DNA of 64,000 bases from Emcibacter nanhaiensis (GTDB lineage Bacteria; Pseudomonadota; Alphaproteobacteria; Sphingomonadales; Emcibacteraceae): NCBI RefSeq assembly GCF_006385175.1, contig NZ_VFIY01000005.1, positions 193,501 through 257,500 on the forward strand, written 5' to 3'. Position numbers and translations under genes: made by a program. The notes under the pieces were generated by a model. That model made no database searches. It was not told the origin of the DNA and saw only the letters and a program-made list of their open reading frames with translations. Shown one piece after another: positions 36,481-48,041 of this stretch. The first letter of the stretch is position 1, and each line of letters begins with the position of its first letter.

Positions 36481-36526
36481 TCGGGCAGAATGTGACCAGA
36501 TGGCCATATTCTGCCCGATTTTTTTC
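36481..36526 (+). terminator. Terminator after the chemotaxis receptor gene
   Basis: TCGGGCAGAAT/ATTCTGCCCGA long stem with an inner TGG/CCA pairing, followed by seven T. It lies 29 bp after the stop. Confidence 0.9.
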
Positions 36527-36608
36527 CCAATGTGGTCTCATTGAAACCCCATTGCCGGTCTAACGTTGCAAACATAGAGATGTGTCGGAGAGAAAACTGG
36601 AGAGAAAA

Positions 36609-36845
36609 ATGAAAACAAGAATCGTTGCCCGCCCTTCAAAAAAGAAGATTTCCTGGTCGCGTCTGTTTTTGCCCGTCGCCACGATCGTCACATTTGCGAT
36701 TTTTGCCGCCGATCTTTTCGCGACCGGCCCGCTCTCGGCCGACGGACCGTCTATCACGAATATTCTGGTCGGGACCGCCCTGTTTTCGCTGTCGACCGCA
36801 TTTATCCTCTGGGCCGGGGATCTGTACCAGCGCGTTCTGAGATAG
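36609..36845 (+). CDS. Small two-helix membrane protein
   Basis: 78 aa from the ATG at 36609, preceded by GGAGAGAAAA; a GTG 27 bp upstream is an alternative. The basic N-terminus (MKTRIVARPSKKK) is followed by two hydrophobic helices (about 20-38 and 54-72) and a short basic end, suggesting cytoplasmic termini. No family recognised. It has its own downstream terminator and is separate from ccmA. Confidence 0.65.
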   Translation: MKTRIVARPSKKKISWSRLFLPVATIVTFAIFAADLFATGPLSADGPSITNILVGTALFSLSTAFILWAGDLYQRVLR

Positions 36846-36912
36846 GCCTCACCAACAGTTTTATCGAGTGGCGGGCACACTCCAACCTGTCCTCTAAAAT
36901 GCCCGCCCCGGG

Positions 36913-36957
36913 GTGCCTGCTTCCTGTCCTGTCCGGGTACAGGAGCAGGCACTTTTA
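36913..36957 (+). terminator. Terminator upstream of ccmA
   Basis: GTGCCTGCT..CCTGT pairs with ACAGG-AGCAGGCAC, about 14 bp with one bulge, followed by TTTT. It isolates ccmA from the small membrane-protein gene. Confidence 0.85.
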
Positions 36958-37044
36958 TCAGGCATACCCCAATTTTTCTTCTGTCTTTGATGTCAAAATG
37001 CTATAGCTCTCAGGACGTTATGTGAATGTGAGGAGGACCGGACC

Positions 37045-37707
37045 ATTCTCGAGGCAAACGGCCTGTGCTGTGTGAGGGGCGATTTTACCGTTTTTACCGA
37101 CCTTGGGTTTTCCCTGCCACGGGGAAAGGCGCTGGTGCTTCGTGGTCCCAACGGATCCGGGAAATCGACCCTGATCAAGGCCATTGCCGGCCTGTTGCCG
37201 GTCCGGGCCGGATTCCTTGCCTGGGAAGGCGAGGCGTTTACCGGTGATGGCGACTGGATCGCCGAAAATATCTGTTATCTGGCCCACAAAAACGCCCTGA
37301 AGCCGGAACTGACCGTGCGCGAAAATATCGCCTTCTGGGCCCGCCTGCACGGGGTGGAGGACGGCATCGACGGGGCCATGGCCGCTCTGGGAATCGATCA
37401 TCTTGGGGATCAGCCGGCCCGCTACCTGTCCTCGGGTCAGGGCCGCCGGACGGCGCTGGCCCGGATGGTCTGCCACCGGGGGGCGATCTGGCTGCTTGAT
37501 GAACCGACCGTGGGACTGGATCAGGACAGCGTTCAGCGGCTGTCCGCGGTCATGACGTCGCATCTGGACCGGGGCGGGCTGATTGTCACCGCGACCCATA
37601 TCGACCTGGGACTGGCCCGCGATCGCAGTATCGTTCTCGATCTTGGTCAATTTTCCGGAAAAGGTGCGGTGGCGGACGACTGGTCCCTGTCGGAGGTCTG
37701 GTCATGA
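37045..37707 (+). CDS. ccmA: Haem ABC exporter ATP-binding subunit CcmA, apparent ATT start
   Basis: About 220 aa. ATPase of the CcmABCD complex that releases holo-CcmE during cytochrome c maturation. Walker A GPNGSGKST, signature LSSGQGRRTALAR and Walker B LLDEPTVGLD are intact. Family members begin M-LEAxxLxCxRG. Here the frame reads ATT-CTC-GAG-GCA and gives (M)LEANGLCCVRGDF, with AGGAGG 8 bp before the ATT. No ATG, GTG or TTG exists there in frame. The first conventional codon, GTG at 37072, would delete the first strand. It overlaps ccmB by 4 bp. Confidence 0.9.
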   Translation: MLEANGLCCVRGDFTVFTDLGFSLPRGKALVLRGPNGSGKSTLIKAIAGLLPVRAGFLAWEGEAFTGDGDWIAENICYLAHKNALKPELTVRENIAFWARLHGVEDGIDGAMAALGIDHLGDQPARYLSSGQGRRTALARMVCHRGAIWLLDEPTVGLDQDSVQRLSAVMTSHLDRGGLIVTATHIDLGLARDRSIVLDLGQFSGKGAVADDWSLSEVWS

Positions 37708-38372
37708 GCGCGTTGTTTTTCCAGATCATCGGCCGGGATGTGAAACTGTCCTGGCGCCAAGGCAGCACCGGCCTGATGGTGGTGTTCTTTTTCGCCATTG
37801 TCGTGTCGCTGTTCCCCTTCGCGGTGGGGCCGGACCCGGACATGCTGTCGCGCATTTCCGTGGCTGTGATCTGGGTCGCCGTGCTGTTGTCCTCGCTGCT
37901 GTCGCTGGACCGGATTTTCCAGGCCGACTTTGAAGACGGCTCGCTGGACCAGTTTGTCCTGCTGCCCCTGCCGCTGGAACTGGTGGTGCTGGCCAAGTCG
38001 CTGGCCCACTGGCTGACCACGGCGCTGCCGCTGATTATCCTGTCGCCGGTACTGGGAATTATGATGCATCTGCCGGCGAACGGTTATCTGCCGATGATGG
38101 TGGTGATGGTGCTGGCCTCACCGACGCTCAGTTTTGTGGGGGCGGTCGGGGCGGCGCTGACCGTGAACCTGCGCCGCGGCGGGGTCCTGCTGTCCCTGTT
38201 GGTGCTGCCGCTTTATATCCCGAGCCTGATTTTCAGCGTGCTGGCGGTCAATGGCGCCCTCGACGGCCAGGATATTCGCCTGCCGCTGATGATTCTGGCC
38301 GGCTTCACCCTGGGCAGCGCCGTGCTGGCACCCTGGGCGGCCGCGGCGGCGATCAGGTCCGGCCTTGACTAG
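37704..38372 (+). CDS. ccmB: Haem exporter membrane subunit CcmB
   Basis: 222 aa with about six membrane helices. The conserved CcmB segments FEDGSLDQFVLLPLPLE and SLDRIFQADFEDG are present, as is the C-terminal ILAGFTLGSAVLAPWAAAAA. It forms the ABC membrane subunit with CcmA. In most genomes ccmC follows directly, but here the next 4.1 kb holds other genes before ccmC. Start ATG overlaps the ccmA stop (ATGA). Confidence 0.95.
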   Translation: MSALFFQIIGRDVKLSWRQGSTGLMVVFFFAIVVSLFPFAVGPDPDMLSRISVAVIWVAVLLSSLLSLDRIFQADFEDGSLDQFVLLPLPLELVVLAKSLAHWLTTALPLIILSPVLGIMMHLPANGYLPMMVVMVLASPTLSFVGAVGAALTVNLRRGGVLLSLLVLPLYIPSLIFSVLAVNGALDGQDIRLPLMILAGFTLGSAVLAPWAAAAAIRSGLD

Positions 38373-38384
38373 GCGATCCCGGCC

Positions 38385-38684
38385 CTAGACATGTTTCGAG
38401 TTCTTGTTCAGGTGAACAGGATCGGTCCGTTCAATCAGTATTTTCAGAAAACCGGGCAGGTGCGGTTTGGCTTTGGTCAGCTGGCGGCACAGCCCCGGGA
38501 TGCGTCGGCGCAGCTTCTGGACCCAGACCCTGACTTTTTCACTTTCGGACACCAGCAGGCTTAAGCCGACCAGGGCTGTGATCTGGCCGATGGGGATCGG
38601 CATTGGCGCAATGATGACTCCGGCAATGAACAGGATCCAGCCGATAATCAGTTTTACGGGTCTTTTTACGGTCTTCCAGGACAT
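38385..38684 (-). CDS. Small membrane protein, PGPGW-like
   Basis: 99 aa from the ATG at 38684. A hydrophobic hairpin (about 12-46: LIIGWILFIAGVIIAPMPIP, then GQITALVGLSLLV) is followed by a basic C-terminus (VWVQKLRRRIPG). The proline-rich turn and following SLLVSE resemble the PGPGW family of small putative membrane proteins. Convergent with ccmB, 12 bp apart. Function unknown. Confidence 0.7.
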   Translation of the reverse strand: MSWKTVKRPVKLIIGWILFIAGVIIAPMPIPIGQITALVGLSLLVSESEKVRVWVQKLRRRIPGLCRQLTKAKPHLPGFLKILIERTDPVHLNKNSKHV

Positions 38685-38818
38685 GGTCACTATTCAGCCA
38701 GAAACAACTTAACATTTGGTGACAGACGACGGGTCTGTAGCAGGATTTATTTTAACCATGGATTCGCGGCGGAACTATGGCCATTCGATGAAAGATTGGT
38801 GACATGCGACAAACAGAC

Positions 38819-39442
38819 TCAAGGGGCCGGCCGAAGGGGCCGTCGGCGGCCCAGGGGATAGTTGCGGAACTCGGCCAGCAGTGTGGCATAAAGGTCCTGG
38901 TCACGATTGTTATAGCGCCACTCACATTCCTTCAGGTGCAGCAGGAAAGTGGATTTGTGCATGCCCCGGAATTTGGCCAGGCGCAGATGGGCAAAATCCC
39001 AGAAACCGGCAATGCCGGTGGCGCGAAGCCGGATGCGCCGGTCATGGCTGACGTCTATCAGTTCGTCATACCCGGGCCAGTGCCGATGACGGACGACATC
39101 CTTGATGCCGGGCTTTTGCGACAACAGTTCGGCTAACGGCTCATGGAGGTCGGCGGTGATGATTTCCGCACAGGCCTGTTCCCGTTTCTCCAGGACTCCG
39201 ATCAGGATATGGTCTGCTTTTTGGGGATAGCTATCCTGTAGCAGGTCATTTTGCGAGACATTTGTGCCGGTCAGCAGGACCACTCGTTCCCGGAATAATC
39301 TGAAGTAGCGGTCGATACTGTTGATATTCATATTGGTCTCGTCAGCCGTCTGCTGGGCTGTTCTGTCGCCGATGTAGCTTTTCAGGAGTTGCCTGAATTT
39401 ATCCTCGGAAATGCGGGAACGAATGCAGTATTTGTTTTTCAT
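38819..39442 (-). CDS. IS1595-type transposase relative with all DDE residues lost
   Basis: 207 aa. The start region (RSRISEDKFRQLL, INSIDRYFRLFRER) is the helix-turn-helix of IS1595/ISXO2 transposases, and FRGMHKSTFLLHLKECEWRY is their conserved C-terminal block. From my knowledge of the family, the catalytic positions are replaced: the D of DESYF is Gln69 (QDSYP), the D of SDGW is Arg120 (RHW), and the E of GIESFW is Ala145 (GIAGFW). About 15 residues before the last motif are deleted. The frame is uninterrupted, suggesting selection for a DNA-binding role, or recent decay. I saw no terminal inverted repeats. Confidence 0.75.
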   Translation of the reverse strand: MKNKYCIRSRISEDKFRQLLKSYIGDRTAQQTADETNMNINSIDRYFRLFRERVVLLTGTNVSQNDLLQDSYPQKADHILIGVLEKREQACAEIITADLHEPLAELLSQKPGIKDVVRHRHWPGYDELIDVSHDRRIRLRATGIAGFWDFAHLRLAKFRGMHKSTFLLHLKECEWRYNNRDQDLYATLLAEFRNYPLGRRRPLRPAP

Positions 39443-39524
39443 TGTATAACAATAGCTTAATCGCGGTTTTATTCCCTGAACTGGGGATGTTCCCATCATT
39501 CATATATTTACTTATAATTTCAAT

Positions 39525-39548
39525 AGGTTATAGTTTTTCCTATAACTT
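39525..39548. repeat. Inverted repeat between divergent genes
   Basis: GTTATAG (39527-39533) and CTATAAC (39540-39546) form a perfect 7-bp inverted repeat with a 6-bp centre, extendable by a GT pair and an AT pair. It lies 85 bp before the transposase-like start on one side and 77 bp before the peroxidase start on the other. It could be an operator for either gene or a remnant of an element end. Confidence 0.4.
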
Positions 39549-39622
39549 GTCTAATTATAGTGTGGATTGTGGAAGACTACAGGGGAGACAGGTTGGTCTT
39601 CACTGACAAATATGGGAGACGG

Positions 39623-40759
39623 ATGATGAAAAGGACCATTCTTGCAGCCGGCGCCTTCTGTACCGTGCTGTTTGCGCCATTGTCAGCGTTGGCGGAAACG
39701 CCGCTTGGATTGCCGCCGGTGCCGGTGCCGGCAGATAACCCGATGACCGCGGAAAAGGTGGCGCTCGGCAAAAAGCTTTTCAACGACAAGAGATTCAGTA
39801 CCACCGGCGAGGTAAATTGCGCCACCTGCCATGACGGCGGCAAGGCCTTCACCGACAGTCCTCTTCGGGTCTCCGAGGGAATCAACAAGCTGACCGGGAC
39901 CCGCAATGCGCCGACCGTGATCAATGCGGCTTATATGAAGACGCAATTCTGGGACGGCCGCGAACCGGACCTGGAACATCAGTCCAAGGGGCCGATTGTC
40001 AATCCGGTGGAAATGGGACAACCAAACCATGACCCGGTGGTTAAACTTGTCCAGGGCGACAAGGAATATCAGAAGATGTTCAAGGCCGCCTTCGGCATTT
40101 CCCCGAAAAAGATTACTATCGACCATGTGGCCAAGGCCATCGCTTCCTTCGAGCGCACGATCCTGGCCGGAGACAGCCCCTTCGACCGTTATATGTACGG
40201 CGGGGACAAGACGGCCATGTCGGAATCTGCCATCCGCGGCATGCGGGTATTCCGGTTCGAGGGCCGCTGCGTGTCCTGTCACACCACCAGCGAAACCTAT
40301 GCCCTGTTCTCGGACAGCAAATTTCATAACCTCAACGTGAATTTCGACAAGATTTCCGGCAGCATCGATTCGGTGACCGAGGCGTTCAAGCGTGACAAGG
40401 CAGGCGGCATGGATCTCGATGTTACGGTCCTGACCGATGCCGAGGCCTCCGAGCTTGGCCGTTTCGTGGTCAGCACCCATGCGGCCGACATCGGCGCCTT
40501 CAAGACGCCGACCCTGCGCAACGTTGCGCTGACCGCGCCCTATATGCATGACGGCAGCCTGAAAACCCTGGAAGAGGTCGTTGACTTCTATAACAACGGC
40601 GGCCGGGTAAACCCGGACGACCCGATCAATGATTTCCAGAGTGGCGGCATTCGCCCGCTGAACCTGACCGATCAGCAGAAAGCCGATCTTGTGGAATTCC
40701 TCAAGGCGCTGACCAGCCCCCGGGAATCCCTCAATAAACTCGCCGAACTGACCAAATAG
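39623..40759 (+). CDS. Di-haem cytochrome c peroxidase (CcpA/MauG family)
   Basis: 378 aa from the first of two tandem ATGs, behind GGGAGACGG. A signal peptide ends near SALA-ET. Two haem c motifs: CATCH at 66-70 (peroxidatic domain) and CVSCH at 216-220 (electron-transferring domain), with Met308 in YMHDGSLKTLEEVV as the likely distal ligand of the second haem. It reduces H2O2 in the periplasm using cytochrome c, or oxidises a protein or metabolite as in MauG. First gene of a three-gene cassette (10-16 bp gaps). The Ccm system next door would attach the haems. Confidence 0.93.
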   Translation: MMKRTILAAGAFCTVLFAPLSALAETPLGLPPVPVPADNPMTAEKVALGKKLFNDKRFSTTGEVNCATCHDGGKAFTDSPLRVSEGINKLTGTRNAPTVINAAYMKTQFWDGREPDLEHQSKGPIVNPVEMGQPNHDPVVKLVQGDKEYQKMFKAAFGISPKKITIDHVAKAIASFERTILAGDSPFDRYMYGGDKTAMSESAIRGMRVFRFEGRCVSCHTTSETYALFSDSKFHNLNVNFDKISGSIDSVTEAFKRDKAGGMDLDVTVLTDAEASELGRFVVSTHAADIGAFKTPTLRNVALTAPYMHDGSLKTLEEVVDFYNNGGRVNPDDPINDFQSGGIRPLNLTDQQKADLVEFLKALTSPRESLNKLAELTK

Positions 40760-40768
40760 GAGGCTTCA

Positions 40769-41899
40769 ATGAAACATATTGACGATGTGAATCTGACCAC
40801 GGCACAGCTTCTTGAAGATACTCCTGTGGCTGAAAATACCACCCGGCGGACGGTGTTGCGCAACGGCGTGGCCCTTGTGGCCGGCGCCTGCCTGCCGATC
40901 ACCAGCGTGAAACTGGCGTTTGGCGGCGAACGTGAAGACTTTACCTTCGCCTATATCTCCGACAGCCATATCCAGCATATCCGCGGCAACAAATTCGTCC
41001 GCAACTGGGATCGCGGTCTGATCCGCGCAGTGGCCGAATGTAATCTGATGAACCCGCGTCCGGACTTCGTCATCTACGGCGGCGACCTGGCGCAGCTGGG
41101 TAAAAAGTCCGAGCTTGATCACGGCTTTGAAATGATGGCCGGGCTGAATAACTTCGATGTTCACTATGTCATGGGTGAGCACGACTATTATCTGGATCTT
41201 GGCGAATACTGGTCCGAACATAACGGTCCCCAGTATTACAGCTTCGACCACAAGGGCGTGCATTTCGTGGTGCTGAACAGCATCATTGTGGATGACGACT
41301 GGACCCATAATACCTGGAAGGACGGCACCGAGCGCATGGGCGTGATGGCCGGCCTGGACGATCCGCGCGGCTCTCCCTTCATGATCGGCAAGAAACAGCT
41401 GAAATGGCTGAAAAACGATCTGAAGAAGGTGAGCAAGGATACACCGGTGGTGGTCTGCTCCCACTCGCCGATCCAGAAAATCTTCAAAAACTGGAACTTC
41501 TGGACCGAGGAAGCCGAGGACATCCAGAAACTGCTGAAGAAATTCGACAAGGCGACAGTGCTGTATGGTCACGTCCATCAGATCCAGTATAACCAGATCG
41601 ACAATATCAGTTTCCATGCGGTGATGGCGACGGCCTGGCCCTGGCCTTATCCGCAGTCATACGTGCAGGCGGAAAGCCACCTGCCGCAGCTGACCATTCC
41701 CATGAACCGGGCCAATCCGTTCTTTGAACGGGATGCCACCGGCTGGCAGTATATTGACATCAACAGCGGCAGGGCCTCTGTGAACTACAGCCTGCCCCAG
41801 AATAAATCCCGGACCGTTGCCTACGATCCGGACAAGGGTCATCCTGTGGACACGACTTATCAGGAAGCAGGTCTGACTTTGCCGCAGAAACGTTATTGA
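40769..41899 (+). CDS. Exported calcineurin-like metallophosphoesterase (Tat-type signal)
   Basis: 376 aa. A twin-arginine-like leader, TTRRTVLRNGVALVAGACLP, lies at 24-43 after an unusually long polar N-region. Metal-site motifs in order are D65-x-H67 (ISDSH), GGD106, GEHD at 136-139 (usually GNHD, so a Glu replaces the metal-ligand Asn), SHSP with H232, and GHVH at 267-270. Substrate unknown: a phosphomono- or diester in the periplasm. A Tat route fits cytoplasmic metal loading. It sits 9 bp after the peroxidase and 15 bp before a cytochrome c gene, an uncommon combination. Confidence 0.88.
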   Translation: MKHIDDVNLTTAQLLEDTPVAENTTRRTVLRNGVALVAGACLPITSVKLAFGGEREDFTFAYISDSHIQHIRGNKFVRNWDRGLIRAVAECNLMNPRPDFVIYGGDLAQLGKKSELDHGFEMMAGLNNFDVHYVMGEHDYYLDLGEYWSEHNGPQYYSFDHKGVHFVVLNSIIVDDDWTHNTWKDGTERMGVMAGLDDPRGSPFMIGKKQLKWLKNDLKKVSKDTPVVVCSHSPIQKIFKNWNFWTEEAEDIQKLLKKFDKATVLYGHVHQIQYNQIDNISFHAVMATAWPWPYPQSYVQAESHLPQLTIPMNRANPFFERDATGWQYIDINSGRASVNYSLPQNKSRTVAYDPDKGHPVDTTYQEAGLTLPQKRY

Positions 41900-41914
41900 G
41901 GATGGGAGACAAAC

Positions 41915-42322
41915 ATGAAAAAGACGCTTAGGAATTTTGCTCTTGTCCTGGGGGGGATGATGATTCTGTCACCCGTTGCCCAGGCGGATGAGTTTAACAA
42001 ACAGGATGTGGAAACCTGGACCAGGGAATTCATGGCCGCAGTGGAAAAAGGCCGTGCCGCCTGGGTGGATGGTAATCTCGGCACCAACGGCGTGGCCTGC
42101 GCCCAGTGTCACCCCAATGCCGCCGACACCCACCCGGAAACCTATCCCAAATACCAGCAGCAGATCGGCCGGGTGGTTGTGTTTGGCGAAATGATCAACT
42201 GGTGCATCATCAACCCGCTGGAAGGCAAGGCCCTGGCGCTGGATGATGAAACTCTGATCGCCATGCAGGCCTATGCCCGCTATGAGCGCCGCGGCGTTGC
42301 CCTCGATCCGGGCAAGCACTAA
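41915..42322 (+). CDS. Small mono-haem cytochrome c
   Basis: 135 aa. Signal peptide MKKTLRNFALVLGGMMILSP, cleaved near AQA. A single haem motif CAQCH is at 62-66. Candidate sixth ligand is Met93 in GEMINWCIINPLEG, close to a free Cys97. The C-terminal helix (LIAMQAYARYERRG) is typical of class I-like cytochromes. It is a likely electron donor or acceptor for the peroxidase encoded two genes upstream. Last gene of the cassette, 150 bp before ccmC. Confidence 0.88.
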   Translation: MKKTLRNFALVLGGMMILSPVAQADEFNKQDVETWTREFMAAVEKGRAAWVDGNLGTNGVACAQCHPNAADTHPETYPKYQQQIGRVVVFGEMINWCIINPLEGKALALDDETLIAMQAYARYERRGVALDPGKH

Positions 42323-42335
42323 ATCTATTCCAAGT

Positions 42336-42387
42336 TCCGGACAGCCTTTTACTTAATAGTGGAAGATATCAGGGGAGGCTGTCCGGA
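42336..42387. repeat. 12-bp perfect inverted repeat with 28-bp spacer
   Basis: TCCGGACAGCCT (42336-42347) and AGGCTGTCCGGA (42376-42387). It lies just after the cytochrome c gene and 85 bp before ccmC. No T-run follows on the plus strand, so it is a poor intrinsic terminator. It may be an RNA stem protecting the cassette mRNA, a regulatory hairpin, or the two ends of a tiny mobile remnant. Confidence 0.5.
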
Positions 42388-42471
42388 TACCGGCGGGGGC
42401 GTTTGTGAATTTATCGGGGAATATGCCCAAATAACTTGATTAAAACATAAGTTGGCGATAGACCTCAGATC

Positions 42472-43203
42472 ATGCATAAGTTCGCAAATCCCGCCCGCTT
42501 CATGCGGTTGAGTAAACTGATCCAGCCCTGGGCGATCGCGCTTGCTGTCGTCCTCCTCACCATTGGCACCTATATGTCCCTTTTTGTCGCTCCTGAAGAC
42601 TACCAGATGGGGGCGACTTTCCGAATCATGTACGTCCATGTGCCGTCGGCCTATATGTCCATGTTCGGCTATGTGCTGATGGCGGTGGCCAGCATTGTCG
42701 GCATCATCTGGAAACATCCGCTGGCGGACTATACCGCCCGGGCGACGGCGCCGATCGGCGCGGCCTTCACCCTGCTGGCCCTGATCACCGGCAGCCTGTG
42801 GGGCGAACCCATGTGGGGCACCTACTGGGACTGGTATGATGCGCGGATGACGTCGGTACTGATTCTGTTTTTTCTCTACCTCGGCTACATGTCGGTATGG
42901 CAGGCCATTGACGACCAGGTGCGGGCCGCCCGCATTGCCGCCATTGTCGCCATTGTCGGGGTGGTCAATATCCCGATCATCAAATTTTCCGTGGAATGGT
43001 GGGCGACCCTGCACCAGCCGGCCAGCCTGATCCGCATGGACGGCCCGAGCATCGCCCCGTCGATGCTGTGGCCGCTGCTGATCATGATTGCAGCCTTTAA
43101 CGCCTATTTCGTGGTGGTGCTGATCTGGCGCCTGCAGCGTCTGATCCTGGGGCGCCGGATCCGGACCCTGCGCCAGCAGCTGACGGCAAGGAGTGGTGAC
43201 TGA
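42472..43203 (+). CDS. ccmC: Haem transporter CcmC
   Basis: 243 aa with six membrane helices. The tryptophan-rich periplasmic motif WGEPMWGTYWDWYDARMTS, which binds haem for transfer to CcmE, is intact, and the histidines before and after it are present (MYVHVPSAYMSMF; ATLHQPASL). Start of the second ccm block, ccmCDEFGHI, with its own upstream region. The stop overlaps the ccmD start by one base (TGATG). Confidence 0.97.
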   Translation: MHKFANPARFMRLSKLIQPWAIALAVVLLTIGTYMSLFVAPEDYQMGATFRIMYVHVPSAYMSMFGYVLMAVASIVGIIWKHPLADYTARATAPIGAAFTLLALITGSLWGEPMWGTYWDWYDARMTSVLILFFLYLGYMSVWQAIDDQVRAARIAAIVAIVGVVNIPIIKFSVEWWATLHQPASLIRMDGPSIAPSMLWPLLIMIAAFNAYFVVVLIWRLQRLILGRRIRTLRQQLTARSGD

Positions 43204-43388
43204 TGGGACCCTATGCAGCCTTTGTCTGGTCAAGCTTCGGCATTGTGGCGGCGGTAATGATCCTGCTGGCCCTGCAGAGCTGGCTCGGCCGCCAGCGGGA
43301 TATCAGACAGTTGCGCCAGCTGGAAGAGCTGATGGGCGGCGGCGAAAAAACACCTCAGGCGGATCAAGGTAACGGACAAGAGGGATGA
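43203..43388 (+). CDS. ccmD: Haem exporter protein CcmD
   Basis: 61 aa. One membrane helix (FVWSSFGIVAAVMILLAL) followed by a basic, helical cytoplasmic tail (RQRDIRQLRQLEELM). CcmD is needed to release holo-CcmE from the CcmABC complex. Size and position between ccmC and ccmE identify it. Overlaps ccmE by 4 bp. Confidence 0.92.
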   Translation: MGPYAAFVWSSFGIVAAVMILLALQSWLGRQRDIRQLRQLEELMGGGEKTPQADQGNGQEG

Positions 43389-43882
43389 CAACACAGCAAA
43401 CCGGAACAGTTCAGAGCCCGCGCAGCCGGGCGGCTTCCCGCAAGCGCCGCCGCATGTATCTGGTGCTCAGCAGCCTGGCGGTGCTCGGCTTGGCGGTGGC
43501 GCTGGTCCTGACCGCGCTGGGCGACAGTATCCGTATGTTTTACGATCCCACCGAGGTGGTGGAACGGCAGATCCCGGCCGGCGAGACTTTCCGGCTCGGC
43601 GGCCTGGTGGAAAAAGGCAGCCTGGAGCGGGGCGGCGATAAGTTACTCTATAAGTTCCGCGTCACCGACGGCAATGAAACCATGCAGGTGATCTATCATG
43701 GCCAGGTGCCGGACCTGTTCCGGGAAGGACAGGGCGTGGTGGCCGAGGGTCACCTGGACGAAAACGGCATCTTTGTCGCCAATGAAGTGCTGGCCAAGCA
43801 TGACGAAAACTACATGCCCAAGGAAGTGGCCGAAAGCCTGAAGGAACGCGGGCTGTGGCAGCATGAAGGGGCGCCTCAATGA
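43385..43882 (+). CDS. ccmE: Cytochrome c-type biogenesis haem chaperone CcmE
   Basis: 165 aa. Membrane-anchored periplasmic OB-fold protein that carries haem covalently on a histidine. The haem ligand is His139 in LAKHDENYMPKEV, with the conserved Tyr143. An N-terminal helix (about 25-45) anchors it. This is the canonical H-type, not the Cys-type found in some archaea and sulphate reducers. Overlaps ccmF by 4 bp. Confidence 0.97.
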   Translation: MTTQQTGTVQSPRSRAASRKRRRMYLVLSSLAVLGLAVALVLTALGDSIRMFYDPTEVVERQIPAGETFRLGGLVEKGSLERGGDKLLYKFRVTDGNETMQVIYHGQVPDLFREGQGVVAEGHLDENGIFVANEVLAKHDENYMPKEVAESLKERGLWQHEGAPQ

Positions 43883-45912
43883 TTGTCGAGACCGGTCATT
43901 TCGCCCTGGTGCTGGCCTTTGCCCTTGCGGTGGTGCAGGGCGTCTTTCCGCTGATTGGCGCCTCCCGGCGCGATGACCGGCTGATGGCGGTGGCCGCCCC
44001 GGCGGCCTACGGCCAGTTCCTGCTGGTGCTGCTGGCGTTTCTCGCCCTGATGCACGCCTACATCACGTCGGATTTTTCCGTAAAAAATGTGGCCATCAAC
44101 AGCCATACCCTGAAGCCCATGCTGTACAAGGTTGCCGGGGTGTGGGGCAACCACGAGGGTTCGATCCTGTTCTGGGCCCTGATCCTGGCCCTGTTTGGGG
44201 GGCTGGTGGCCTTGTTCGGCCGCAATCTGCCCAAGAGTCTGCATGTGCGGGTGCTGGCGGTGCAGGGACTGATTTCGGTGGGCTTTTACCTGTTCCTGCT
44301 GTTGACCTCCAATCCGTTTGAGCGGGTGTTTCCAGTGCCGCTAGAGGGCAACGGCCTCAACCCGCTGCTGCAGGACCCGGGACTGGCCTTCCATCCGCCG
44401 TTCCTGTACCTCGGCTATGTGGGCCTCAGTGTGGCTTTCTCCTTTGCCGTGGCGGCCCTGCTGGAAGGCCGGGTCGATCCGGCCTGGGCCCGTTGGGTCC
44501 GGCCCTGGACCCTGATTGCCTGGTGTTTCCTCACCATCGGCATCACGCTCGGCAGCTGGTGGGCCTATTATGAGCTCGGCTGGGGTGGTTGGTGGTTCTG
44601 GGACCCGGTGGAAAATGCCTCCTTCATGCCCTGGCTGGTGGCGACGGCGCTGCTGCACTCCGCCATTGTGGTGGAAAAACGCGACACGCTGAAAAGCTGG
44701 ACTATCCTGCTCGCCATCATCGCCTTTTCCTTCAGTCTGCTCGGCACCTTCCTGACCCGCTCCGGGGTGATTACCTCGGTCCATGCCTTTGCCACCGATC
44801 CGGAGCGCGGCGTCTTCATCCTGATCTTCCTGCTGATCGTGATCGGCGGCAGCCTGCTGCTCTATGCCCTGCGCTATGACCGGCTGCAGCCCGGCGGCCT
44901 GTTCGCGCCGATCAGCCGCGAAGGCGCGCTGGTGATGAACAATATGCTGCTGACCGTGGGCGCGGCCACGGTGCTGTTCGGCACCTTGTATCCGTTGCTC
45001 CTGGATGCGCTGACCGGCGACAAAATCTCTGTTGGCGCCCCCTATTTCGAAATCACTCTCGGCTCGCTGATGATCCCGCTGGTGCTGATCATGGCCGCCG
45101 GGCCGTTTCTGCGCTGGAAGCGGGCCGATCTGTTCGGTGTCGTGCACCGCATGCGCCTGGTCCTGTTTGTGTCGCTGGCGGTGATGGTGGCGGGCTATTT
45201 CATCGCCCACCATGACGCCGGGCACCGGCCGTTGCTGACCGCCCTGTGGCTGGGGCTCGGCATCTGGCTGATGCTCGGCACGCTGGCCGAGCTTGGGGAA
45301 CGGATCAAACTGTTCAAGGTGCCGGTCATGGACAGCGTCAGGCGCCTTGGCCGCCAGACCCGGGCCAGCTGGGGCATGACTCTCGGCCATTTCGGCCTGT
45401 CGGTCATGATCCTCGGTATCGCCGTGACCTCAAGCTGGCAGAGCGAACATCTGGATGTGCTGGTGGCCGGGGAGAAGATCGAGATCGGCGGCTATGAACT
45501 CACCTTCAACGGCGTCAGGCCGCTGGCCGGCCCCAACTATACCTCGCTGGCCGGGGAGTTCACCGTCCGGGACAAAAACGGTGATGAAGTGACCCAGCTG
45601 CTGCCGGAAAGCCGGACCTATGCCAGCCCGCCCATGACCACCACCGAAGCGGCCATCTACGCCCGCTTTTTCGGCGACCTGTTTGTCGCCATCGGCGAGG
45701 GACAGGGCCAGAATGCGGCCGGTCAGGACCGCTGGTCGGTCCGGGCTTATTACAAGCCGCTGCAGTTCTGGTTGTGGGGCGGGGCCATGATCATGGTGAT
45801 TGGCGGCCTGGTGTCGCTCAGTGATCGCCGCTTCCGCATCGGGGTGCCGGCCGGACGCAAAAGGACAGCCGCGACCGGGAAATCAGAAGGGGGAACAGCC
45901 CATGCAACTTAA
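43879..45912 (+). CDS. ccmF: Cytochrome c haem lyase subunit CcmF
   Basis: 677 aa with many membrane helices. The WWD motif (GWGGWWFWDPVENASFMPW) and the flanking histidines (YKVAGVWGNHEGS; TRSGVITSVHAF) mark the haem-handling protein superfamily. It ligates haem from CcmE to apocytochromes together with CcmH and CcmI. It overlaps the ccmG start by 11 bp. Confidence 0.97.
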   Translation: MIVETGHFALVLAFALAVVQGVFPLIGASRRDDRLMAVAAPAAYGQFLLVLLAFLALMHAYITSDFSVKNVAINSHTLKPMLYKVAGVWGNHEGSILFWALILALFGGLVALFGRNLPKSLHVRVLAVQGLISVGFYLFLLLTSNPFERVFPVPLEGNGLNPLLQDPGLAFHPPFLYLGYVGLSVAFSFAVAALLEGRVDPAWARWVRPWTLIAWCFLTIGITLGSWWAYYELGWGGWWFWDPVENASFMPWLVATALLHSAIVVEKRDTLKSWTILLAIIAFSFSLLGTFLTRSGVITSVHAFATDPERGVFILIFLLIVIGGSLLLYALRYDRLQPGGLFAPISREGALVMNNMLLTVGAATVLFGTLYPLLLDALTGDKISVGAPYFEITLGSLMIPLVLIMAAGPFLRWKRADLFGVVHRMRLVLFVSLAVMVAGYFIAHHDAGHRPLLTALWLGLGIWLMLGTLAELGERIKLFKVPVMDSVRRLGRQTRASWGMTLGHFGLSVMILGIAVTSSWQSEHLDVLVAGEKIEIGGYELTFNGVRPLAGPNYTSLAGEFTVRDKNGDEVTQLLPESRTYASPPMTTTEAAIYARFFGDLFVAIGEGQGQNAAGQDRWSVRAYYKPLQFWLWGGAMIMVIGGLVSLSDRRFRIGVPAGRKRTAATGKSEGGTAHAT

Positions 45913-46444
45913 GGCGATCCTGCCACTGGCCATCTTTGCGCTGCTGGCCGTCGCGCTGGGAGTAGGGCTGACGCTCAACCCGCGGGATATTCCCTCTGCC
46001 CTGATCGATCATCCGGTACCGGAATTCAGCCTGCCCAACCTGGAAGGCAATGATGACGGTTTTGCCGCCGCGGACCTGATCGCCGCGGGGGATGAAGTTG
46101 TCCTGGTCAATTTCTTTGCCTCCTGGTGCGCGCCCTGCCGGATCGAGCACCCGCAGCTGGAAAAGCTGGCCTCGGATTACGGGATTAAAATTTACGGCAT
46201 TGCCTATAAGGACAAGCCGGAGAATTCCCGGTCTTTCCTGAATAATCTCGGCAATCCCTATGCCCGGGTGGCGGCCGATTTCAACGGCCGGGTCGGAATC
46301 GACTGGGGTGTGTATGGCGTGCCGGAGACCTATTTCATCAAAAACGGCCGCATTGTGCATAAACATCTGGGTCCGATCCATGAAATGGATATCGAGGACA
46401 AGATTATTCCGGTTCTGAAACAAATACAGGAAAAGGACCAGTGA
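45902..46444 (+). CDS. ccmG: Thiol:disulfide interchange protein CcmG (DsbE)
   Basis: 180 aa. N-terminal membrane anchor (LPLAIFALLAVALGVGLTL), then a thioredoxin fold with the redox motif WCAPC, Cys76 and Cys79, and the cis-Pro in YGVPETYFI. It reduces apocytochrome cysteines before haem attachment. The start lies inside the end of ccmF, and the stop overlaps the ccmH GTG by 4 bp. Confidence 0.96.
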   Translation: MQLKAILPLAIFALLAVALGVGLTLNPRDIPSALIDHPVPEFSLPNLEGNDDGFAAADLIAAGDEVVLVNFFASWCAPCRIEHPQLEKLASDYGIKIYGIAYKDKPENSRSFLNNLGNPYARVAADFNGRVGIDWGVYGVPETYFIKNGRIVHKHLGPIHEMDIEDKIIPVLKQIQEKDQ

Positions 46445-46911
46445 GAGCAGTAGTCCTGTCAGTGTTGTTGATCTTCTTCACCCAGTCCGCCTTTGCCCTT
46501 GGCGTCGATGACGGCCGCCTCAAGGACCCGATCCAGGAAGCCCGGGCCCAGGAACTGATGAAACAACTGCGCTGTCTGGTGTGCCAGAATCAGTCCATTG
46601 TCGACAGCAATGCCGACCTGGCCCAGGATCTGCGTATGGTGGTGCGGGAACGCATCCTTGCCGGCGATACGGATGAAGAGGTGCTGCATTATATGACCGA
46701 CCGCTATGGCGACTGGGTATTGTTGAAGCCGCCGCTCAAAAGCGAAACCATGATGCTGTGGTTCTCGCCGCTGATTCTCCTGGTGATCGGCGCAATCTTT
46801 GCCGTGCTGTACCTGCGACGGCGCTCCTCCGCGGTCCAGCCGGCCGCCCCGCTCAGCCACGAGGAAGAGGCCCGGCTGGAAAAACTCCTGCATGACGGGG
46901 AGGAGAAATGA
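46441..46911 (+). CDS. ccmH: Cytochrome c-type biogenesis protein CcmH
   Basis: 156 aa from a GTG start. Signal peptide, then the redox motif RCLVCQNQSIVDSNADLA (Cys45, Cys48), and a C-terminal membrane helix (LWFSPLILLVIGAIFAVLYL). It presents reduced apocytochrome to the lyase. It is the short CcmH form, the TPR part being a separate gene (ccmI). Confidence 0.96.
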   Translation: MRAVVLSVLLIFFTQSAFALGVDDGRLKDPIQEARAQELMKQLRCLVCQNQSIVDSNADLAQDLRMVVRERILAGDTDEEVLHYMTDRYGDWVLLKPPLKSETMMLWFSPLILLVIGAIFAVLYLRRRSSAVQPAAPLSHEEEARLEKLLHDGEEK

Positions 46912-48041
46912 TGTACTGGGCGATCATGGCTGTTCTGCTGTTTCTGGCCCTGGCGGTCGTGCTGGTGCCGCTGCTGCGGTCCGGCAAGCGTCAACGGGAC
47001 GAGCATCCGGATGTGGCGGTCTACAAGGCCCAGCTCGCGGAACTGGAAGAGGATATCGCCCAGGGCCGCCTGTCGGCAGAGGAAGCGGAGACCGCCCGGC
47101 TGGAGATCCAGCGTCGCCTGCTGAAAGCGGCCGACCGGCAGGAGGTCGGCACCGCGCCCGTCACGTCGCTGACCGGAAAACTGATCATGATCGCCGGCCT
47201 GGTGCTGGCCTGCTCCGCCCTGTATCTCGAGACTGGTACACCCGGCATGCCCGATTTTCCGAAGGAGCTGGAACAGGCGGCCGGCGAGGATGAAGACCGG
47301 CAGAAGCTGCTGGAATTCGTCGACAGGATCAAGGCCCGGCTCAAGGAAGATCCCGACTCCAAGGTCGGCTGGATGGCGCTTGGCCAGTTTGAAAACCGGC
47401 TTGGCCATTTTCCCCAGTCCGCGGCCGCCTTCGAGCGGGCCTGGGAGCTGGATCCGGACAATTTCGAACTGATGATCATGTATATGGAAAGCCTGATCGT
47501 CCTGTCCGACGGCAAGATGAGCCCGGCGGCGCTGTTGATGCTGGAAAAGGCGCTGGCCAAGAATCCAGACCATCCCGGGGTGCAATATTATGTGGCTTTG
47601 CTGGATTATCAGTCCGGCAAGAAGAAAGAGGCGCTTGCCCGCTGGCAGGCGATTGTCGACCAGTCGCCGCCCGATGCGCCCTGGACCCGGCAGATTAACC
47701 AGGTGATTGCCATGACCCGGCAGGAACTGGGTCTGGAAGCGAACGGGGAGCAGGCGGCGCCGGTGGCTCCGAATGTGGACCAGGAACAGATGCAGGTGGT
47801 GCAGGATATGTCGCCCGAAGAGCAGCAGCAGATGATCCGCAGCATGGTCCAGCGTCTGGCGGACCGGCTCGAGGAGAATCCCGAAAATGGCCCCGGCTGG
47901 CAGCGGTTGGCAAAGGCCTACCAGGTGCTGGGAGAGCGCGAGCAGGCTATTGACGCCTACAAAAAAGCGCTTATATATTCACCGGAAAGTGATAAACCGG
48001 CCCTTGAAAAAGAGCTGGAAAAGCTGGAAAATTCCAAATAG
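46908..48041 (+). CDS. ccmI: Cytochrome c-type biogenesis protein CcmI (TPR)
   Basis: 377 aa. The N-terminal membrane helix (WAIMAVLLFLALAVVLVPLL) and the conserved loop VYKAQLAELEEDIAQGRLS are followed by a second helix at about 88-105. A periplasmic TPR domain follows (PDSKVGWMALGQFENRLGHF; a second set near NGPGWQRLAKAYQVLGERE). TPRs hold the C-terminal tail of apocytochromes. Last gene of the ccmCDEFGHI operon. Confidence 0.93.
   Translation: MMYWAIMAVLLFLALAVVLVPLLRSGKRQRDEHPDVAVYKAQLAELEEDIAQGRLSAEEAETARLEIQRRLLKAADRQEVGTAPVTSLTGKLIMIAGLVLACSALYLETGTPGMPDFPKELEQAAGEDEDRQKLLEFVDRIKARLKEDPDSKVGWMALGQFENRLGHFPQSAAAFERAWELDPDNFELMIMYMESLIVLSDGKMSPAALLMLEKALAKNPDHPGVQYYVALLDYQSGKKKEALARWQAIVDQSPPDAPWTRQINQVIAMTRQELGLEANGEQAAPVAPNVDQEQMQVVQDMSPEEQQQMIRSMVQRLADRLEENPENGPGWQRLAKAYQVLGEREQAIDAYKKALIYSPESDKPALEKELEKLENSK

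Follow-up and report, generated by a model that had tools for sequence, protein, structure and literature searches.

Introduction

The genes of the di-haem enzymes MauG and MbnH adjoin those of their protein substrates, and the classical bacterial cytochrome c peroxidases (CCPs) of the same family take their electrons from small cytochromes c. SoxB is, by its fold, a metallophosphoesterase. In Erythrobacter flavus it acts together with TsdA in one thiosulfate pathway, according to the available part of PMC7608252. Here we analyzed a cassette of three genes (positions 39,623 to 42,322) in a 64,000-nt stretch of the Emcibacter nanhaiensis genome (contig NZ_VFIY01000005.1, positions 193,501 to 257,500 of the forward strand; the whole stretch is called the window), in which a MauG/MbnH-like di-haem enzyme, a metallophosphoesterase (MPE) and a Cys-haem cytochrome c are encoded in a row. 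We know of no earlier link between these three protein types, and the cassette looks like an undescribed periplasmic redox module. An exported three-gene unit with MauG-like, GEHD-phosphoesterase and Cys-haem parts is conserved across many genomes. Within it the MPE and the cytochrome form a nearly inseparable gene pair, which in the window's branch is joined by the di-haem enzyme, and in part of this branch the genes have OxyR- or PerR/Fur-like regulators as neighbours and OxyR-type boxes in their promoter regions. We tentatively read the cassette as a peroxide-linked redox module of the periplasm, with the MPE-cytochrome pair as its core and H2O2, via the MauG-like enzyme, as the electron acceptor.

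The cassette resembles the MbnH/MbnP and MauG/preMADH systems in the CCP_MauG fold, in a Tyr that aligns with the MauG Tyr and in its dedicated neighbour genes, but here the di-haem enzyme is partnered by a phosphoesterase and a Cys-haem cytochrome, and it scores below the curated cut-offs for both MbnH and MauG. With the bacterial di-haem CCP (CcpA) it shares the family, two haem motifs, an adjacent small cytochrome and, in part of the loci, a peroxide-regulator context, whereas a Tyr stands where CcpA has its Met ligand. The cytochrome has the PF21342 domain, the fold and a Cys at the axial-ligand position in common with the haem domains of SoxA and TsdA, but it carries one haem only, and two arginines important for TsdA activity are replaced. 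A Cys-haem cytochrome that works with a hydrolase of presumably the metallophosphoesterase kind recalls TsdA and SoxB of E. flavus, as far as the available part of that paper describes them; the cassette differs in an MPE without a match to the SoxB model, in its additional di-haem enzyme and in a genome where neither SoxB nor another SoxA/TsdA gene was found. Finally, the MPE has the fold (Z 15.0-17.7 among the top matches) and the metal-site motifs of GpdQ, Rv0805 and purple acid phosphatases, and is set apart from them by a Glu in place of the Asn of GNHD, by its cytochrome neighbour and by a signal for twin-arginine translocation (Tat).

Literature searches did not contradict the claim, made when the window was first read from its letters (the original prediction), that no system of this composition had been described. 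No description of the cassette was found among the matches listed, although other protein names may have escaped, and no paper was found with both "metallophosphoesterase" and "cytochrome c peroxidase"; a term search of the available part of PMC6405878, on MauG/CCP neighbourhoods, gave no match.

Conservation of the three-gene order

The cassette consists of three open reading frames (ORFs) on one strand, separated by 9 and 15 bp:

39623 to 40759 (alternative start 39626), + strand: di-haem enzyme of the CCP_MauG family, MauG/MbnH-like, 378 amino acids (PF03150, 194 bits, E 2.8e-57)
40769 to 41899, + strand: MPE with a Tat signal, 376 amino acids (Metallophos, PF00149, 47 bits, E 5.2e-12), with a GpdQ/Rv0805/purple-acid-phosphatase-like fold
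41915 to 42322, + strand: mono-haem cytochrome c of the SoxA/TsdA family, 135 amino acids (SoxA-TsdA_cyt-c, PF21342, 43.5 bits against a cut-off of 27)

The tight spacing and the identities given in the original prediction were thus borne out, and the Pfam search added the family of the cytochrome, which had not been named. The export signals claimed for all three products were also recovered: the twin arginines of the Tat signal are conserved in at least 98% of 81 MPEs, and the N-termini of the di-haem protein and the cytochrome are Sec-like as judged by eye.

When GTDB contigs were searched with six phosphoesterases, at least 593 pattern matches were obtained, at least 576 of which were confirmed as relatives; the locus counts that follow cover the best 80 of these, i.e., the nearest ones. 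A di-haem homologue was found directly upstream of the MPE and on its strand in 78 of the 80 loci, and a cytochrome homologue directly downstream in 79. The exceptions were L089, a lone MPE with neither partner, and L090, in which the MPE frame is merged with part of the di-haem gene and which was counted as lacking the latter. The arrangement is not due to chance. The original prediction had named conservation of the gene order outside this strain as the point on which the functional link would stand or fall, and the order is conserved. The pairwise protein distances of the three products were correlated as well (r 0.74, 0.73 and 0.61 over 75 loci, to which shared ancestry contributes), the calculation omitting four loci with partial di-haem frames (L018, L054, L055, L058) together with L090 and L089. 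Neither the end of the di-haem protein nor the start of the MPE is present in the 721-amino-acid di-haem-MPE fusion of L090, which resembles the product of a deletion or a misassembly in a metagenome-assembled genome (MAG); it was given no weight as evidence of fusion.

The distribution of the cassette is patchy. Among the 80 records, 72 are titled as MAGs (labels unverified) and eight are strain assemblies, the latter from Methylocystis, Methylobacter, Steroidobacter, Povalibacter, Tahibacter, Thiohalobacter and Pacificimonas, and 12 of the records carry labels of phyla outside Proteobacteria in the old sense. In an even sample of Alphaproteobacteria only the window's own genome had a match (1/387), and matches were found in 31 of 276 gammaproteobacterial genomes and in 15 of 81 genomes from the family of a Methylobacter strain. 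Among the 60 closest genomes, a set that includes the window's own, five had any match, and in four of these it was strong. The cassette is compact and widely spread, and the existence of cultured hosts makes it testable.

The three proteins

The residues that define the three products are located as follows:

39818 to 39832, + strand: haem motif CATCH, residues 66-70 of the di-haem enzyme (C66, C69 and H70 in 75 of 79 rows, 4 gapped)
40268 to 40282, + strand: haem motif CVSCH, residues 216-220 of the di-haem enzyme (C216, C219 and H220 in 78 of 79 rows, 1 gapped)
40589 to 40591, + strand: Tyr323 of the di-haem enzyme (ungapped alignments to MauG 3l4m and Pseudomonas aeruginosa CCP 1eb7)
40844 to 40849, + strand: twin arginines R26 and R27 of the Tat signal of the MPE
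41174 to 41185, + strand: GEHD motif of the MPE, Glu137 replacing the usual Asn of GNHD (at least 98% of 81)
42098 to 42112, + strand: haem motif CAQCH, residues 62-66 of the cytochrome (C62, C65 and H66 in at least 98% of 80)
42203 to 42205, + strand: Cys97 of the cytochrome, presumed axial haem ligand (aligned to TsdA Cys96)

The first product has a CCP_MauG domain with two CXXCH motifs, as expected of the family, and lacks the Met ligand to the electron-transfer haem that characterizes a classical bacterial CCP. Its Tyr323, which is a Tyr in 79/79 di-haem proteins, aligns with index 294 (Tyr) of MauG 3l4m, a residue of known role in MauG; in P. aeruginosa CCP 1eb7 and in 1iqc its counterpart is a Met (index 275 and 258, respectively), the ligand of the classical enzymes. 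The best-scoring NCBIfam model was TIGR04039, "MbnH family" (279.7 bits, cut-off 362.85), and the MauG model TIGR03791 gave 200.4 bits (cut-off 443.85); because both scores fall below the curated cut-offs, the name is limited to MauG/MbnH-like, neither MbnH nor MauG. The best relative in the PDB was 6e1c.

The predicted model of the MPE (predicted local distance difference test, pLDDT, 66.7) was closest to GpdQ 3d03 (Z 17.7, 212 aligned residues, root-mean-square deviation 3.3). The PF00149 match and the fold are those of a calcineurin-like metallophosphoesterase, whereas the canonical GNH(D/E) motif, present as GNHD in the aligned GpdQ, is replaced by GEHD. Since the superfamily is defined by fold and the variant concerns the motif only, we kept the protein in the superfamily. 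D65, H67, D106, H138, H232, H268 and H270 are retained. The SoxB model TIGR04486 was not among the matches of the window's MPE up to E 1.

The predicted model of the cytochrome (pLDDT 83.9) was closest to TsdA 4wq8 (Z 10.2, 103 aligned residues, root-mean-square deviation 3.9), followed by SoxA 1h31 (Z 9.8). Cys97, the neighbouring Trp96 and a C-terminal His are each conserved in at least 98% of 80 cytochromes. In the available part of PMC6879331, Cys96 is described as the distal (axial) haem ligand of TsdA, and two arginines, numbered 109 and 119 there, as important for activity. These correspond to mature positions 82 and 92 by the 27-residue offset of 4v2k, and in the cassette cytochrome they are Gln83 and Met93, each conserved in at least 98% of the sequences.

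The MPE-cytochrome pair and its third partner

The 31 gammaproteobacterial matches fell into a strong group (n=16, E 3.1e-175 or better) and a weaker one (n=15, E 4.0e-106 to 7.5e-73), and 16 further loci were drawn from them, namely 14 of the weaker and two of the strong matches. In all 16 the MPE carries GEHD and is adjoined by a cytochrome of the same family. The third gene varied. A MauG-like gene was present in four of these loci (L102, L103, L116 and L117); in eight (L106-L113) an exported protein with an Lcl_C domain follows the pair, as judged by eye and confirmed with Pfam in two; in two more the third position is taken by cbb3-type oxidase genes (by eye, one subunit confirmed in each); and in the last two no third gene was recognised by eye. 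L110 also has a separate CCP of the Met type. Rhizobial plasmids carry the pair too, preceded there by a carboxypeptidase-regulatory-like protein, and on a Phyllobacterium plasmid cbb3-type oxidase genes come after it. In the rhizobial loci L011 and L012 no MauG-like gene was present in the fetched stretch. In a tree of the MPEs, the eight Lcl_C loci, and likewise the cbb3 loci with a Sinorhizobium relative (four in all), were clades with a support of 1.0; the order in which partners changed is not settled by this tree, because it was rooted with a single distant MPE, L016. The pair thus persists while the third gene varies, and therefore the MPE-cytochrome pair is the core and the di-haem enzyme an exchangeable partner. 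Separately, a lone MPE of the cassette type, with neither a cytochrome nor a di-haem gene, was observed near siderophore genes on a Methylocystis bryophila plasmid (L009:7935-9011).

Peroxide regulators and upstream boxes

The scan of neighbouring regulators relied on the known motif and operator of OxyR. In 13 of the 80 loci there is a divergent LysR-type gene whose GHC motif has the C-x8-C spacing of OxyR, a count stated without a chance model; in 68 of the 80 loci the upstream sequence reaches at least 1.2 kb. Twelve of these genes lie within 295 bp of the cassette frame and one, at L025, at 763 bp. In the two OxyR-type neighbours that were scanned the OxyR model scored best, below its cut-off. 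Genes of the Fur family adjoin the cassette at L022, L027, L072, L031, L042, L058 and probably L088 (partial), and in the four that were scanned a PerR model was the best, again below cut-off and with the Fur models close behind. At L066, L070 and L076 an adjoining gene was named by eye as Dps-like, and at L027 one was named as bacterioferritin-like.

The upstream regions of part of the loci carry matching sites. The full OxyR operator was matched at 12 or more of its 16 positions in 7 of 13 OxyR loci vs 4 of 59 others, and each of the seven matches in OxyR loci had a p of at most 0.005 against dinucleotide shuffles. The shorter box WTAG-N7-CTAW was counted in 71 upstream regions, among them the window's, which has none; it occurred in 18 of these, and in 8 of the 13 with an OxyR neighbour, compared with 1-2% in the controls (35/3500 random windows from the same loci, 147/7100 mononucleotide shuffles). 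A narrower box, TTAGAC-N3-GTCTAA with up to two mismatches, was present in 12/71 vs 9/1400. In L039, L043, L048 and L095 a stand-alone LysR DNA-binding domain lies directly upstream of the cassette, and three of these four loci have the WTAG-N7-CTAW box; these domains are possibly truncated OxyR-like regulators. LysR DNA-binding domains without a sensor, located upstream of the cassette or of the pair, were noted at L039:8373-8687, L043:8429-8758, L048:8382-8813, L095:8449-8724 and L107:4352-4684.

In the window one upstream feature can be listed:

39540 to 39554, + strand: degenerate LysR/OxyR-type box, CTATAACTTGTCTAA (the relatives L017 and L019 have TTAGAACTTGTCTAA)

The best match to the full OxyR operator upstream of the window's cassette, 10 of 16 positions, was not significant (p 0.48). 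The OxyR model gave 25 LysR-type matches in the genome, one of them near cut-off, and an OxyR-like gene (322.5 bits, cut-off 329) lies away from the cassette.

Proposed mechanism and alternative explanations

In a peroxide-linked module, the di-haem enzyme would activate H2O2 and draw electrons from the Cys-ligated cytochrome, which in turn would receive them from a reaction at the metal site or the surface of the MPE. With such an electron path from MPE to cytochrome to di-haem enzyme, peroxide reduction would thus be coupled to the oxidation of whatever substrate the pair handles. The original prediction also raised redox control of the metal centre, which is possible. If the peroxide link is true, H2O2 in the periplasm is coupled to a further reaction in a new manner, MauG-like enzymes gain a new set of partners, and a phosphoesterase fold works together with a haem. 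A bolder version, which we hold to be doubtful, treats the MPE and the Cys-ligated cytochrome as a new class of periplasmic oxidoreductase, in which the GEHD phosphoesterase fold would carry out or assist redox chemistry and into which evolution would plug differing acceptors, H2O2 through the MauG-like enzyme or O2 through the cbb3-type oxidase.

Several observations weigh against the peroxide link. Twelve of the 16 further loci lacked a MauG-like gene in the stretch that was fetched, and the conservation of the order is overstated for the wider family, because the 80 loci are the nearest relatives; the taxon labels of the MAGs may also be wrong. OxyR was not found nearby in 67 of the 80 loci, all 13 OxyR-flanked loci come from gammaproteobacterial MAGs, several of them closely related, and the window itself has neither an adjacent regulator nor an exact match to the box. 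The WTAG-N7-CTAW box was picked post hoc, after the matches to the operator and to the narrower box, with some loci being close relatives and kinship uncorrected; of its controls, the random windows are mostly coding and the shuffles keep base composition only. A box beside oxyR could serve oxyR alone. Within the proteins, Trp110 of the di-haem enzyme is kept in 71 of 75 sequences and replaced in four, and a haem with a Cys ligand is low in potential and does not have to carry electrons.

A different use of peroxide, which we consider unlikely and yet the most serious of the alternatives, is protein maturation, in which the di-haem enzyme, like MauG or MbnH, would use H2O2 to modify a Trp or Tyr residue of a neighbouring protein, either in the MPE or at Trp96 beside the haem Cys of the cytochrome, with the cytochrome as oxidant or reductant of the step. 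The MauG-type Tyr and the MbnH model as best match suit this reading, as does the location of the mauG and mbnH genes beside those of protein substrates. Candidate targets are also at hand: all 10 Trp residues of the window's MPE are conserved in at least 98% of 81 sequences, the twelve commonest MPE C-termini (68 of 81) all finish in Tyr or Phe, and the Trp96-Cys97 step of the cytochrome is equally conserved. The pair, however, stands without a MauG-like gene in the fetched stretch not only in the 12 further loci but also in the rhizobial L011 and L012, and six of the ten Trp residues are invariant even when L011 and L012 are included in the alignment. No site peculiar to the di-haem branch came to light, a systematic comparison not having been made.

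Plain peroxide scavenging, with the di-haem enzyme as a peroxidase, the cytochrome as its donor and the MPE as a separate stress enzyme in the same transcript, is improbable in our judgement. The peroxide regulators that adjoin part of the loci would fit it, and so would the donor role of small cytochromes c in classical bacterial CCPs, but the Met of these CCPs is replaced by Tyr, and in the 16 further loci the MPE and the cytochrome are linked more tightly to each other than either is to the di-haem gene, which makes the MPE unlikely to be a passenger.

Quite improbable, too, is a role in sulfur chemistry, whereby the Cys-haem cytochrome and the MPE would act on an inorganic sulfur compound and the di-haem enzyme would serve as electron sink. 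It draws on the SoxA/TsdA fold and the Cys position of the cytochrome, on SoxB being likewise a metallophosphoesterase and on the joint pathway of TsdA and SoxB in the part of the E. flavus report cited above. In two Sinorhizobium meliloti plasmid loci (L012:9805-12246 and L100:9808-11995), moreover, soxY and soxZ lie ~2 kb from the pair on the opposite strand, which there also encodes a cytochrome c and an FAD oxidoreductase. On the other side, the activity arginines of TsdA are replaced by Gln83 and Met93, the MPE has no match to the SoxB model, and in a survey of 50 of the 80 cassette genomes SoxB was above cut-off in 14, a figure without a background rate for comparison, and not in 36, many of which are incomplete MAGs. 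In the window's genome (98.74% complete) SoxB gave no match, and the SoxA/TsdA family was matched by nothing other than the cassette cytochrome; the cassette is therefore independent of a Sox pathway in this genome.

Last, the idea of the original prediction that an organophosphate is hydrolysed and its product then oxidised is very improbable: the calcineurin-like fold is closest to GpdQ, a glycerophosphodiesterase, and a phospholipase C/acid-phosphatase-like gene lies ~4.2 kb upstream in four Methylocystis-type loci (L073, L085, L093 and L096; by eye), but no other phosphate-type cluster was seen by eye, with no profile scan, among the 45 neighbour clusters listed (antisense ORF clusters having been discarded by eye as spurious), and the recurring close neighbours are peroxide regulators and iron-storage genes. 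Of the earlier proposal that the three genes act together, the behaviour as a unit stands, and the organophosphate pathway is hardly supported.

Genomic setting of the cassette

In the window the cassette lies within a cytochrome c maturation (ccm) cluster, a setting that the original prediction had not remarked upon. The flanking features are:

37072 to 38372, + strand: ccmA and ccmB (TIGR01189 and TIGR01190, above cut-off), upstream flank
38819 to 39499, - strand: transposase-like gene (weak IS1595 match, 14.2 bits, below cut-off)
42472 to 48041, + strand: ccmC, ccmE, ccmF-type, dsbE-type, NrfF/CcmH-like (below cut-off) and ccmI genes, downstream flank

By sequence similarity, three relatives of the same family (G010, G026 and G028) have the cassette at the identical site between ccmB and ccmC. 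The transposase-like gene, which sits between a small PGPGW gene and the cassette promoter, is absent from these three, and a single copy was found in the window's genome. An Rfam search of 36500-46000 gave no match, and in 38300-43300 three promoter-like and three terminator-like sites were found, vs 3.1 and 4.2 in shuffles. Between the cytochrome gene and ccmC there is a perfect 12-bp inverted repeat (42336-42387) with arms 28 nt apart, after which no T-run was seen by eye.

Additional genes of the di-haem family were observed elsewhere. In the Methylocystis-type loci L073, L082, L085, L087, L093 and L096 a second di-haem CCP_MauG-like gene lies ~2.6 kb upstream on the opposite strand, and the window's genome has two more CCP_MauG matches (G000:C5:191675-192133 and G000:C14:58906-59355), one of them ~1.4 kb before the start of the window.

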